DNA of 64,000 nt from Pelosinus sp. UFO1 (GTDB lineage: Bacteria; Bacillota; Negativicutes; DSM-13327). Positions 19,658 through 24,940 of this stretch are shown here, piece after piece; position 1 is the stretch's first letter, and the number at the start of each line of letters is the position of its first letter. The stretch lies in assembly GCF_000725345.1 (NCBI RefSeq), contig NZ_CP008852.1:2633693-2697692 (forward strand). Reading direction: 5' to 3'. The notes beneath the pieces were generated by a model, which did no database searches, was not told the DNA's origin, and saw only the letters and a list, made by a program, of their open reading frames with translations. The translations under genes were made by a program, and so were the position numbers.

Positions 19658-19891
19658 TTATTCTAATGTCACAATAATATTTTTTGCAATTTCAAAATCT
19701 AAAGCAATCTGTGTATATCCTACTTCCAATACAAAAACAGGATAGGTTTGTAAAATCTTAATCAGCACCCCCGGTAAGATTCCAAAGGCAGCCATTTTTC
19801 GTAAATGACTATCTTCGCTACTTAGTAAAAGCCTTACAACACGTACCATATTCCCTTTCTTAAGCCTTACAATGGGTACAGGCTTCACCAT
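19658..19891 (-). CDS. feoA: FeoA-domain ferrous iron transport accessory protein
   Basis: This 77-residue protein has the small SH3-like FeoA fold pattern (LRKMAAFGILPGVLIKILQ, then VLEVGYTQIALDFEIAKNIIV). FeoA acts with FeoB in ferrous iron uptake at the membrane. I start at the ATG at 19891, which has AAGGAG 8 nt upstream; a TTG at 19909 overlaps that site. It lies 41 bp downstream of the 3' half of the interrupted feoB, so the original order was feoB then feoA. Confidence 0.85.
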   Translation of the reverse strand: MVKPVPIVRLKKGNMVRVVRLLLSSEDSHLRKMAAFGILPGVLIKILQTYPVFVLEVGYTQIALDFEIAKNIIVTLE

Positions 19892-19932
19892 ATCTTCATC
19901 TCCTTGCAAATAGCCATTAAAGGCAATTCTTG

Positions 19933-20626
19933 CTATAAGCTAATTGACCAATAGTATAGTAAATGAGATAGTACGAATCCGCCAATAAAAGCTAAAAAAA
20001 TGATAGTTAATAGCATTAACATGGAGATAAATACTCCTCTTTCCTTTATCATTACCGCAACTTGCGCTACACATGGTACAAATAGTGTTAATGTCGTACT
20101 AGCAATCAATAGCTGTTCTTTACTTAGGCGATTCGTAGCACACATCTCATATAGCCCAGCAGCCCCATAGTCTCTTCGGAAAAATCCTAATAAGAACGGC
20201 TGCGCGGTTTCTATTGGCAAGCCTAGTAATACCATAATAGGTTCTAGTTGACTTATAATATAAGATAAAACTCCATATCGGTCTCCACACCACATAATAA
20301 AACTCGTTATGAGGAAAACTGGCAATATTTCCACAAAATACCACCACATGCGGATGAACGCCTTGTGGAAAACATTCGATAATTTTGGAAGACGTAGGGG
20401 TGGTATTTCCATATAAAAAGCACTACTAGTTCCAGGCATTAACTTCCCAGACAGCCATCCAATACCCGTGAAAATGACTAGCATATAGACTCCCCATATT
20501 ACCACTGATAAAGAAGATTCAGATAATAGTGCTAAAATAACGCCTAATTGTGCGGAACAGGGTATTGTTAAAGCAAGTAAGAAGGTTGACAGAATTCTTT
20601 CGCGGCGTGTTTCCAATGTTCGAGTT
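19933..20626 (-). pseudogene. feoB: 3' fragment of feoB (C-terminal membrane domain), separated by the element
   Basis: The fragment encodes the second half of the FeoB membrane domain, starting in frame at VTRTLETRRERIL and containing PCSAQLG, the second gate-type motif (VPCVAQVAVM), and several membrane segments. The only start codon near the 5' end is a TTG at 20616 without a clear ribosome binding site, so it is probably not translated by itself. Reading upstream from CGA ACA TTG gives VTR, the same residues with which the other half (23617-24873) ends. Joined, they make one FeoB. Confidence 0.85.
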
Positions 20627-20639
20627 ACAACGCGCGAAA
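20598..20639. other. Putative attL (C-terminal feoB junction of the element)
   Basis: TTTCGCG (20598-20604) and CGCGAAA (20633-20639) form arms of an imperfect inverted repeat around the junction, extended by GCGTGTT against CAACGC. Large serine recombinases typically bind such two-armed sites about 40 bp long. The segment 20620-20628 matches 23626-23634 at six of nine bases. The exact 2-bp core cannot be fixed; CG at 20621-20622 and GT at 20624-20625 are candidates. Confidence 0.6.
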
Positions 20640-20714
20640 AACAAACGCACCAAGTCTTCCTCTTATTACTTGACGCATGATATAAACCTTGTCCACGTTA
20701 AGCCGAGTCTGAAT

Positions 20715-20843
20715 TTATTCGCTTTGTTTTTGCGGAATAAAGAATGGCTTTAAAGCATTTAACAGGTCATCAATAAATTCTTTTGGTGGTTCATCTTCGG
20801 AATATATCCTTCCATCTATCTCATATTCAAAAATTACTTCCAT
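20715..20843 (-). CDS. Small acidic protein encoded in the feoB element
   Basis: An ATG preceded by a GGGGGGG-rich Shine-Dalgarno (about 8 nt upstream) opens a 42-residue ORF starting MEVIFEYEIDGRIYSEDEPP and ending FFIPQKQSE. It is acidic with no membrane segment or cysteine. It sits about 90 bp from the left end of the element. I do not recognise the family. A recombination directionality factor is one possibility because such factors are small and often encoded near an attachment site, but nothing in the sequence proves it. Confidence 0.6.
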   Translation of the reverse strand: MEVIFEYEIDGRIYSEDEPPKEFIDDLLNALKPFFIPQKQSE

Positions 20844-21020
20844 CTTAATCCCCCCCATTACTATATATGCTTAAGATTTGTCCATATTGCTACAAAAAAA
20901 AATAAGCATGGAAATAAGCATTCGGTAAATAGGTTATAAAAAAGAATAAATTTGACCTGCAATTGCCTGCTTGCCTCACTAAGAAAGTTAAAATTTGTTT
21001 ACATTATTCTAAATAAAAAA

Positions 21021-21060
21021 AAGACAAGGCTCTTCAAATAGAGCCGTGTCTCTTTTTTTT
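21021..21060 (-). terminator. Bidirectional terminator after yitT-like gene
   Basis: AGACAAGGCTC and GAGCCGTGTCT pair around an 8-nt loop, with T runs on both sides. On the minus strand it ends the YitT-like gene about 40 nt after its stop codon. Confidence 0.85.
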
Positions 21061-21097
21061 AGCTTCGTCGCTTTATAGAACATTCATACTTTTGACA

Positions 21098-21958
21098 TTA
21101 ATGGATTGACTTCTTTTTGACTCTGCCTCCCATGACATCATGTACATCCGTTACTGTAACGAAAGCAGTTTCATCTTTTTCTTGCACAATCGTTTTGAGT
21201 TTGGCTATTTCAAGACGTGTAATGACGGAATATAGAATCTTTTTAGATTCTCCCGAATAACCGCCTTCGCCATGAAAAATGGTTACACCTCTCCCTAGAC
21301 GAGCCATTAGCGCATCTGCAATTTCGTCAGGAGCTTCTGTAACAATCAGAATTCCTTTCGATTCATCTAACCCTTCAATCGTTATGTCAATCACTTTAAA
21401 AGCAATAAAATACGCTACTAAGGAATACATGGCTTTATCCCAGCTAAAAACGAAACCTGCACTGCCCAAAATAAAAAGATTAAAAAACATAACGATTTCA
21501 CCAATAGAAAATCCTGATTTTTTCCCTAGCAAAATGGCGACTATCTCCGTCCCATCTAAAGATCCCCCATACCTGATAATTATGCCGACACCGATTCCAA
21601 CGACGATTCCCCCAAAAGTAGCCGATAAAAATAGATCTCTAGTAACTTCAGTAATGGGATGAAATATTGAGACCCAGTAGGATAAAGATAAAATTGAGAA
21701 AACGGTTGAAATGGCAAACGTTTTTCCAATTTGCGTATATCCCAAATATAAAAAAGGTAGGTTTAACAGCACCAAGAACAGACTTAATGGCATGCCAGTC
21801 AAATGACTTGCCATAATAGATATTCCTACAATACCGCCATCAATGATTTGGTTAGGCACTAAAAATTCTTCTAGTCCAATGGCAGTAAAAATAGAGCCGA
21901 TTAAAAGCATTATGTATTTTTTTATTGTGGATATAATTATTTTTTTCTTCTTTTGCAA
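21098..21958 (-). CDS. YitT family membrane protein with DUF2179 domain (element cargo)
   Basis: This 286-residue protein has five to six N-terminal membrane segments (about 15-195) with the YitT hallmarks (GLEEFLVPNQIIDGGIVGIS, then RYGGSLDGTEIVAILLGK) and a soluble C-terminal DUF2179 domain (about 215-280, VTIFHGEGGYSG). The function of the family is not established. The start is TTG with AGGAGGGGGAG about 10 nt upstream. It is carried inside the feoB-interrupting element and is divergent from the recombinase. Confidence 0.85.
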   Translation of the reverse strand: MQKKKKIIISTIKKYIMLLIGSIFTAIGLEEFLVPNQIIDGGIVGISIMASHLTGMPLSLFLVLLNLPFLYLGYTQIGKTFAISTVFSILSLSYWVSIFHPITEVTRDLFLSATFGGIVVGIGVGIIIRYGGSLDGTEIVAILLGKKSGFSIGEIVMFFNLFILGSAGFVFSWDKAMYSLVAYFIAFKVIDITIEGLDESKGILIVTEAPDEIADALMARLGRGVTIFHGEGGYSGESKKILYSVITRLEIAKLKTIVQEKDETAFVTVTDVHDVMGGRVKKKSIH

Positions 21959-22160
21959 TACGAGACGTCTCCCCCTCCTACATAAAATTTAGTAAATTGG
22001 TATTTCTTTTAACTTTAAATTCTATAAAAAAGTATTATCCCCTTTTTAATATTACATCAGCCCCAAAATAATCCTCATGATGTTCATGAAACTATTTCTA
22101 AGATTTTATGAATTGAATATATTTTATTCATAGATTAACTAATATTTTATGGAGGATATT

Positions 22161-23612
22161 ATGAATGCTCTTTACTGTCGTGTAAGTACAGACCTTCAGG
22201 CAGAAACAGGATATTCAATTGGTGATCAAATACGTACTTGCCGCGAACATGCGCTTGAGCTTGGCCTAGAAACATTTAGAAACTTTGAATATATTGATGA
22301 TGGTTATAGTGGGGAGTACTTAGAAAGACCTGCTCTTGACCGCTTAAGGGAAGATCTAAGAGCTAAACTAATACAAGATGTCATAATATACGATCCAGAC
22401 CGCCTTAGTCGTAACTTAACCAACCAGTTGCTTTTAGCTGATGAAATTGAAAAAGCTGGTGCAGTGCTACACTTTGTAACTGGCAGCTATGATGCTTCAC
22501 CTGAGGGGCGTCTTTTTTTCTCAATTCGTGGTGCGATCAGCGCCTTCGAAAAGGCCAAAATTCGCGAACGAACTCTACGGGGTAAACGCGCAAAAGCCTG
22601 GAATGGTAAAATCATACAAAATGGCCATGCTTACGGATATGATTGGGACGAGGAAAATAGTACCTACATCATTAATCAGAAAGAAGCTGCCATTGTTAAA
22701 ATGATTTATGATTTATATCTCAGTCGAAAACATACCATAAAAGATATTGCACTTTTTCTTAAACAGCAAAACATTTTCAATCGAAAAAATAACCCGTTTA
22801 CTCTTTCTATGATTTATCGAATTTTAACTGATGAAAAATATGCGGGTATAAAATGGTCATTTAATATATATGATAAGAAAATTAGTCAATATAAACGCAA
22901 GAAAATAGCAAGACCGCAGGAAGAGTGGATTCCTATTCCGATTCCTCCAATCATTACATCCGATGAATATCAAACTGTACGGCAAATTCTATCGGAAAAC
23001 AGACGCAAAAGTCCACGTAATACAAAACAACAGTACCTTTTACGTAATTTTATCAAATGTGCAGTTTGCGGCTATGGCATATCTGCCCATCATAAGCTCT
23101 ACTCTTCTGGTAAAGAATATTCTTGGTATAAATGTCATTCTGGAGGAACCGATAAATCATTAACCCCTTGTGGTAACCCTGCTGTTTCTGCTTTAGAGCT
23201 TGATGATCTAATATGGAAGCATCTCTGCAGGCTTACCTACAGTCAAAAAGAACCTGCTTCAATTTTGCGGCAAGAAACAGTTCTCGATGATACAGCACAG
23301 CTAACTAAGCTAAAAGATTATCACAATCAGCTTAAAAAGAAACAGACTACTATAGTACGCTGGTTTCACGATAATATGTTATCTCCCGACGACGCAGAAA
23401 AAGAACTACAGTTTCTAAAAAGAGAACTACAAATTACCTTTTCTTCTATCAGTAAACTATCTTCCAAAATAACAAAAGGGCCTACTACAACTCCTGAAGA
23501 AATTCTATCAGCAACATCCTTCGCAGAACGCCGTACAATTTTCGAAAATCTAGGCTGGAAAGTATTAGTTGATAATCGTCAGAAACCAGTAAGAATACGA
23601 TTTAAAATATAA
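22161..23612 (+). CDS. Large serine recombinase (site-specific integrase/excisionase)
   Basis: This 483-residue enzyme has an N-terminal resolvase catalytic domain (YCRVSTDLQAETG, catalytic Ser about residue 9; FFSIRGAISAFEKAKIRERT), a Recombinase domain (about 150-260), a zinc ribbon (CAVCGYGI, then the later cysteines of YKCHSG and TPCGNP) and a coiled coil (about 390-435). I use the ATG at 22161 because GGAGG lies 5 nt upstream; an ATG at 22149 precedes that site. It is the probable agent of insertion and excision at feoB. A CATAGATTA at 22129-22137 resembles the -10 of mother-cell sigma factors, but I see no convincing -35. Confidence 0.93.
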   Translation: MNALYCRVSTDLQAETGYSIGDQIRTCREHALELGLETFRNFEYIDDGYSGEYLERPALDRLREDLRAKLIQDVIIYDPDRLSRNLTNQLLLADEIEKAGAVLHFVTGSYDASPEGRLFFSIRGAISAFEKAKIRERTLRGKRAKAWNGKIIQNGHAYGYDWDEENSTYIINQKEAAIVKMIYDLYLSRKHTIKDIALFLKQQNIFNRKNNPFTLSMIYRILTDEKYAGIKWSFNIYDKKISQYKRKKIARPQEEWIPIPIPPIITSDEYQTVRQILSENRRKSPRNTKQQYLLRNFIKCAVCGYGISAHHKLYSSGKEYSWYKCHSGGTDKSLTPCGNPAVSALELDDLIWKHLCRLTYSQKEPASILRQETVLDDTAQLTKLKDYHNQLKKKQTTIVRWFHDNMLSPDDAEKELQFLKRELQITFSSISKLSSKITKGPTTTPEEILSATSFAERRTIFENLGWKVLVDNRQKPVRIRFKI

Positions 23613-23616
23613 TCTT

Positions 23617-23634
23617 TTATCTTTCACGTGTGAC
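23617..23634. other. Putative attR (N-terminal feoB junction of the element)
   Basis: In the feoB direction the gene reads GTC ACA CGT (VTR) and then leaves homology, meeting a TAA two codons later that the element supplies. The segment 23626-23634 aligns with 20620-20628 at the other junction. Confidence 0.6.
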
Positions 23635-24873
23635 CATAACTGCCATTGTTCCACATCCAAGTCCCAATGCAAAAGGAATGACAGCTCGACCATTAAGACT
23701 CAATTTCTTAAATATAATATCCATTAACATTGCTAAACGCGGCAAGTATCCACTGTCTTCAAGAATTGCAAATACGAAGAAAAAAGTACTAACAATTGGC
23801 AATATGATAATAAATGCATAGCGAAAACCTAACGTGAATAACCCATACTTACCTACTACTAATGACTGCATCCATTCCCAAGGAATGAATTGATATACAA
23901 ATAATTGTACGAGAGGATTAATATAGGGCACAAAAATACTATTATCAATATAATCCACTAAAAAACCTGCTCCAAACCTTCCGACAAATTGATATATTCC
24001 AAAAAATAATACTAAACATAAAATGGGTAACCCAGTTGCAGGTTCCCTCGTTAAACGCCCCAGTTTTTCACCGGCTCCTTGTTGATATATTCCCCGCTCT
24101 TTTAAAACCTTATCACATATACTATCAACAATTTTTTGGCGTTCTATCGTTATTATATATTCCATGCCATACTGGTAACAATCACCTAATTTATTTATTT
24201 CGGTAATCATCTCACAAAATAAAGGCTCCTTACCAGAAGCTAGTTCGTAGAACGCTTTATCTCTCTGTATCAGCAAAAGAGCTACCATACGAGGTGATAT
24301 GCCATACCCTTCCTTTAATTGATTACTAATTAGCATAATAGATTGTTCAATCGTATTAGTAAATTTCATATGAAAGCACGACTGTACTGGACGATATTGT
24401 CTAATCTCTTTTTTTAGACTCTCCAATCCAATGCCATTTATCGCTGATGCTGGGATGACCGGAATTCCTAGTATTCTACTAAGATGCCCAATATCAAGAA
24501 CAATACCATTTTTTTCAGCTTCATCCATTAAATTAACAACTACTATTACGGGAAACCCCATATCTAAGAGCTGTATTGTTAGATTTAACATCCTGCGAAT
24601 ATTCTTAGCGTCCATTACGTGCACAACAATATCTGGCTTTTCTTGCAATAATATAGACCTAGCTACTCTTTCTTCATCCGTAATTGTTATGAACGAGTAC
24701 ATACCTGGAGTATCTATAATTTCATACATTCTACCATTTATTTTACAATATCCAGAAGAAACATCAACAGTGGTTCCTGGATAATTAGATACAGCAACAT
24801 ACTGTCCTGTTAAATAATTAAAGATTACACTTTTACCTACGTTAGGTGAACCCACTAACACAACTTTTGCCAA
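23617..24873 (-). pseudogene. feoB: 5' portion of feoB (G domain and first membrane half), truncated by element
   Basis: The 418-residue product contains the full GTPase domain (GSPNVGKS at about 8-15, DTPG about 54, NLMDEAEKNG about 115, SAINGIG about 144) and the first part of the permease up to the first gate motif GCGTMAVMVTR. It then ends after two element-encoded residues (ER). A full FeoB needs the second half at 19933-20626. The start is TTG with GGAGGG about 8 nt upstream. The product might fold as a soluble GTPase with some membrane helices, but it should not transport ferrous iron. Confidence 0.9.
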
Positions 24874-24940
24874 TCATCTTCCCTCCACCACTAAAAATTA
24901 TATTGCTATTTTCCTATTCAAAAAACAACATAATTAGAAC

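Follow-up and report, generated by a model that had tools for sequence, protein, structure and literature searches.

A recombinase-bearing element splits feoB in nearly all Pelosinus genomes and probably rebuilds it by excision

In the genome of Pelosinus sp. UFO1 (G000; 5.1 Mb, one contig), feoB—which encodes a ferrous-iron transporter—is interrupted by a 3,006-bp element that carries a large serine recombinase, a YitT/DUF2179 protein and an open reading frame (ORF) of 42 amino acids. The locus lies in a 64,000-nucleotide stretch of contig NZ_CP008852.1 (positions 2,633,693 to 2,697,692 of the forward strand), to which we refer as the window and on which the coordinates given here are based unless a contig or locus is named. 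A first-pass annotation of this DNA had described a split of feoB by a serine-recombinase element of about 3.0 kb, and its account of the two halves, their coordinates, the junction codons and the content of the element is correct. Sequence comparison establishes a conserved position, intact halves under selection, a recognizable architecture of the attachment (att) sites and one precise natural loss. We conclude that the gene-intervening element is genuine and kept by selection, that its target gene is of a new kind, and that feoB is probably rebuilt by excision of the element.

The split gene and its element

The 5′ half of feoB (23617..24873, minus strand; 418 amino acids as read) encodes the N-terminal GTPase, the cytosolic helical domain and the start of the first Gate domain, and its terminus reads ...MAVMVTRER*, the final residues being encoded by the element. 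The 3′ half (19933..20634, minus strand), which opens VTRTLETRRER..., encodes the FeoB_C domain and the second Gate domain, and is adjoined on its downstream side by feoA (19658..19909, minus strand). In the NCBIfam model for feoB (TIGR00437), the 5′ half covers positions 1-376 and the 3′ half positions 374-594; because the two matches are complementary, both halves together amount to one full FeoB. Joined at the Val codon that they share, they give an in-frame protein of 644 amino acids, the size that had been anticipated for the excision product (about 644 residues). Two further FeoB_C-domain loci, with open frames of 798 and 490 amino acids, are present in the same genome. Upstream of feoB (window about 24890-24930) there is a short motif like TGAATAGGAAATA, which recurs across many Negativicutes and is perhaps a metal-responsive operator.

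The element (20627..23634, minus strand) spans 3,006 bp between GT cores at 20627-20628 and 23633-23634. Its recombinase (22149..23612, plus strand) is convergent with the feoB 5′ half and probably starts at the ATG at 22161, behind GGAGG. The protein has the Resolvase, Recombinase and zinc-ribbon domains and the conserved catalytic Ser of large serine recombinases of the phage-integrase type, and the TP901-1 and A118 integrases are among its closest solved relatives. Outside the window, about 4.2 kb ahead of its first position, another large serine recombinase (46% identical) is encoded (G000:C1:2628110-2629477). The YitT-family membrane protein with its DUF2179 domain (21098..21958, minus strand) is encoded by the gene under the strongest constraint in the element. 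YitT paralogues encoded elsewhere in the genome reach 65-72% in other species and only about 33-34% in G000 and G006, so that the element copy is the sole close YitT copy of these two.

The third gene, the 42-amino-acid ORF (20715..20843, minus strand), is present in every element copy. These three ORFs are the entire coding content of the 3 kb, with no genes for phage structure or transfer among them, which bears out the statement of the first-pass annotation that transfer genes are lacking and rules out a functional prophage or an integrative conjugative element. A recent phage or plasmid insertion was likewise rejected: among the matches listed, the best phage recombinase was 37.6% and the best plasmid recombinase 35.3% identical (all less than 40%).

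Recombination sites

At the 5′ half of feoB, the att site (23613..23664, minus strand) consists of a feoB arm that ends in GTTATG, the core GT (23634-23633) and an element arm that begins with CACACGTGAAAGATAAAAG. At the 3′ half (20597..20658, minus strand), an element arm ending in TTTTTCGCGCGTT is followed by the core GT (20628-20627) and a feoB arm that begins with AACTCGAACATTGG. Recombination at any dinucleotide shared by the two junctions, as originally envisaged, proved too loose a description. In four Pelosinus species (G001, G002, G005 and G007) the 5′ half ends ...MAVMVRSKR*, and VTRTLE is therefore restored in all seven element-bearing species only if the core is the GT of the Val codon; this GT is common to both att sites in every one of them.

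With this core, the rebuilt feoB is predicted to read GTTATG-GT-AACTCG at its junction, and the circle CGCGTT-GT-CACACG. The attP reconstructed from these sites forms an inverted repeat, though an imperfect one. When its symmetry was scored with the centre slid over 23 positions per genome, GT was the best centre in 7/7 genomes (12-13 of 18 positions match). Serine-recombinase attP sites have been described with this arrangement, a repeat inverted about a central dinucleotide (PMC5595907). The element encodes its own site-specific recombinase and is flanked by att sites that share a core; it splits a coding gene, the frame of which is restored on excision, as in the natural, precise loss described next.

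Distribution and history in Pelosinus

We compared eight Pelosinus genomes and a wider set of 381 genomes from 102 genera of the class. In seven of the eight, an orthologous recombinase (67-93% identical to that of the window), YitT and the small ORF are found at the same feoB codon, within a shared gene order of DUF155, CoA-binding protein, thioredoxin, feoB, feoA, DUF1858 and polysaccharide deacetylase. That seven species have kept an identical split is far beyond chance. In the eighth genome, that of P. fermentans JBW45 (G004), feoB is uninterrupted (open frame of 650 amino acids) and there is no close recombinase. Most other relatives that have this feoB also carry it intact at the syntenic place, so the search for an uninterrupted copy that the first-pass annotation had suggested was successful both within the genus and beyond it.

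In a tree of eight flanking genes, JBW45 is nested among the element carriers (97-100% support at the relevant nodes), which, together with its intact gene, indicates that the element was lost precisely in this lineage. The junction in JBW45, ATG-GT-AACGCGAACATTGG, matches exactly the one expected after excision of the element from its closest split relatives. The YitT tree follows the species order, and so does the recombinase tree, weakly resolved short branches aside. Most likely, the element was present in the Pelosinus ancestor, was inherited vertically and was lost precisely in JBW45, which is, as judged from its junction, a natural example of a rebuilt feoB.

Elsewhere in the class, a recombinase at Pelosinus-like identity was found in one genome only (G047, from another family), beside a feoB 5′ half that is broken at the same place. 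The two open feoB halves of G047 lie on different contigs, C67 (L030, L075) and C77 (L074, L060), and the att sites retain the GT core; no more than 25 kb from the recombinase, on its element side, are the core chromosomal genes for SpoIIP, Der, GpsA and LytB. Either the chromosome has been rearranged here or the intervening segment is very large. Across the class, orthologues of this feoB occur mostly in larger genomes and are missing from many small-genome families.

Selection on the halves and element genes

Between split species, the two feoB halves have ratios of non-synonymous to synonymous substitution rates (Ka/Ks) of 0.11-0.18 (5′ half) and 0.05-0.18 (3′ half); the recombinase has 0.10-0.16, and YitT does not exceed 0.05. 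None of these frames has internal stops. Synonymous sites are near saturation between G000 and the other split species (Ks > 1.5). When the rate of the 3′ half was compared with that of the 5′ half, split genes showed no acceleration of the 3′ half over intact relatives. By these measures, purifying selection acts on both feoB halves as well as on the recombinase and YitT, and we rejected a decayed pseudogene given the low Ka/Ks, the lack of lesions and the lack of acceleration in the 3′ half. The first-pass annotation had warned that a second complete feoB could make this copy a plain pseudogene; two other FeoB_C loci do exist, yet the halves are intact and selected.

Neither a start codon nor a ribosome-binding site of the 3′ half is conserved between split species: four species have an in-frame ATG without a Shine–Dalgarno sequence, G003 has no ATG, and G000 and G006 have TTG only. 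For a 3′ half that is selected although it lacks a conserved start, rejoining to the 5′ half in some cells would be the simplest explanation.

A candidate directionality factor

The 42-amino-acid protein has a homologue of 47 amino acids next to the recombinase of G047 and was not found beside the other recombinases retrieved; we infer that it is a good candidate for a recombination directionality factor. Before its gene lies a promoter-like conserved block (20850..20891, minus strand), CAATAT-GGACAA-N7-GCATATATAGTA..GGGGGGG, with a sigma-E-like −10 element, a SpoIIID-like GGACAA and a Shine–Dalgarno sequence. The consensus of the block across copies, CAATAT(T)-[GA]GACAA-N-GCATATA-N-TA-GGRGGG, is conserved while most of the spacer has diverged, and its GGACAA, GCATAT and Shine–Dalgarno parts recur before the homologue in G047, a member of another family.

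SpoIIID and SpoIVA are both encoded. In Pelosinus, the spoIIID promoter region contains GCATATATA (−10 GCATATA), with TTGTCC, the reverse of GGACAA, before it, and upstream of spoIVA there is AATATT-N13-CATATATTTA (AATATT-N13-CATATA). The SpoIIID consensus of B. subtilis is WWRRACARNY. In C. difficile, sigma-E and sigma-K promoters have a very similar −10 element, and the −35 element has ATA for sigma-E or AC for sigma-K (PMC3789822). In the skin element of the same species, the directionality factor CD1234 (72 amino acids) is controlled by sigma-E and SpoIIID, and the recombinase (CD1231) is constitutive (PMC5025042). By analogy with CD1234, the block before the 42-amino-acid ORF may be a sigma-E/SpoIIID promoter.

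A second conserved sequence, TGGACAAG, is found just past the 42-amino-acid ORF, near the 3′-half att site (window about 20680-20700, minus strand), in 7/7 elements. In Clostridiaceae bacterium BRH_c20a (L071:2650-2830), GGACAA-N10-GCATAT precedes a small ORF directly upstream of a 36%-identical serine recombinase; this is possibly another sporulation-controlled excision module, or chance.

Excision in the mother cell and its alternatives

We propose that the recombinase would join the two GT cores, releasing a 3-kb circle and restoring feoB in frame, and that the 42-amino-acid protein, acting as the directionality factor, would permit this excision. As the factor would be made in the sporulating mother cell under sigma-E with SpoIIID, the vegetative cell would retain the split feoB, the mother cell would gain FeoB and the spore would inherit the split gene. 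We consider it reasonably probable that a domesticated, vertically inherited gene-intervening element rebuilds feoB in this way, by excision in the sporulating mother cell through the 42-amino-acid factor, and excision most likely takes place in that cell during spore formation. Its restriction to a terminal cell would explain why a cleanly excisable element has been retained in the germ line of seven species. C. difficile provides a precedent for FeoB in the mother cell: its feoA-feoB genes are listed as dependent on sigma-K, with an expression ratio of 0.05 (PMC3789822). To the fuller statement—that mother-cell excision turns on a ferrous-iron transporter in diderm spore formers, that the 42-amino-acid factor is read by sigma-E and SpoIIID and that the germ line stays split—we give about even chances.

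Several observations weigh against excision in the mother cell. Each assembly contains one match to the feoB 5′ half, and no excised junction or circle is visible. The 42-amino-acid protein has no match in PHROGs, NCBIfam or PDB, nor to described directionality factors, and the −35 spacing of the block before its gene varies and is short in G000 and G006. A sigma-E-like pattern on its own is not enriched genome-wide (22 matches versus 18 in the control) and was dropped as stand-alone proof, and the feoB promoter region in Pelosinus has no consistent sigma-E or sigma-K consensus. Moreover, FeoB is not a classical sporulation protein.

Reversible or stochastic switching in growing cells, whether as phase variation or as excision under iron limitation, would have the element excise and reinsert so that part of the population makes FeoB. 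A single serine recombinase is able to integrate and excise given the right factor, the two other feoB loci could meet basal needs, and the conserved sequence in the feoB promoter region could be metal-regulated. We nevertheless think such switching unlikely, as every element-bearing assembly has the integrated state only, no Fur box was identified for feoB and no Rfam match (riboswitch or other RNA) was found for it, and the block upstream of the small ORF resembles sporulation sites. Furthermore, a 3-kb circle without an evident replication gene would vanish from the germ line (compare JBW45), yet the element has been kept in seven species. Of the possibilities raised by the first-pass annotation, an excisable skin-type element is strongly supported, by the conserved position, the intact selected halves, the fit of the att sites to a serine recombinase and the loss in JBW45; between developmental and phase-variable switching, it is only through the promoter-like footprint, the genus-wide retention and the C. 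difficile precedent that the evidence leans towards the former, and control by iron is unsupported either way.

A split FeoB that works as two separately translated polypeptides, in an element that is kept for a useful YitT cargo and excises only incidentally, would fit the strong constraint on YitT (Ka/Ks at most 0.05) and the open, selected halves. This is improbable, given that no start codon or ribosome-binding site is conserved for the 3′ half, that conservation extends to the recombinase and to the inverted repeat of the att sites, and that JBW45 has a normal fused gene. A plain mobile-element remnant in a feoB pseudogene, its shared position a matter of common ancestry only, would suit a small element without transfer or phage genes in a genome with two other feoB loci, but is very improbable because neither half has decayed despite the near-saturated synonymous sites (Ka/Ks of 0.05-0.18 at Ks > 1.5 for G000 versus the others) and the recombinase is maintained too.

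Comparison with known systems

No case of feoB as a site of excision or integration was found in the literature searched, the coverage of which is incomplete, in keeping with the first-pass annotation, which knew of none. The cited intervening elements of spore formers split sporulation regulators or coat and envelope genes, whereas the feoB element lies in a gene for metal uptake. Almost an entire genus of diderm spore formers carries it stably, and its gene content is down to the recombinase, a single membrane protein and a very small candidate factor. If the proposed mechanism is true, programmed genome rearrangement governs the iron supply to a developing cell, and the compact pair of recombinase and factor, with its defined GT core, would be of use for mechanistic work.

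The closest parallel in design is the skin element in sigK of C. difficile, which similarly combines a large serine recombinase with a small factor (here a candidate) behind a sigma-E/SpoIIID promoter (here a similar sequence) and with in-frame rebuilding of the gene (PMC5025042). Whereas the target of skin is a sigma factor, the feoB element splits an iron transporter, has three ORFs in 3 kb and no prophage genes, and its excision is deduced from sequence. Like the feoB element, gin in gerE of Bacillus cereus ATCC10987 is a non-phage element with a serine recombinase, a small factor and an attP-type inverted repeat centred on a dinucleotide (PMC5595907); however, gin, with its 31 genes and three recombinases, sits in a sporulation regulator, whereas the feoB element encodes a single recombinase and is nearly genus-wide. 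Yin in yabG of Clostridium botulinum and SP-beta in spsM of Bacillus subtilis share with it the in-frame reconstitution of a gene by site-specific excision in spore formers, although they are prophages or prophage-like and target spore coat or envelope genes, and yin is known from one isolate.

The interruption elements of heterocyst-forming cyanobacteria (for example, fdxN/XisF) belong to another phylum and another cell type, and their sequence similarity to the feoB element is at the level of the family only, the recombinase having a sub-cutoff match to the XisF model. Yet, like the feoB element, they split metabolic genes, can be as small as a recombinase alone and are removed so that the gene is rebuilt in a terminal cell type (PMC4874684).

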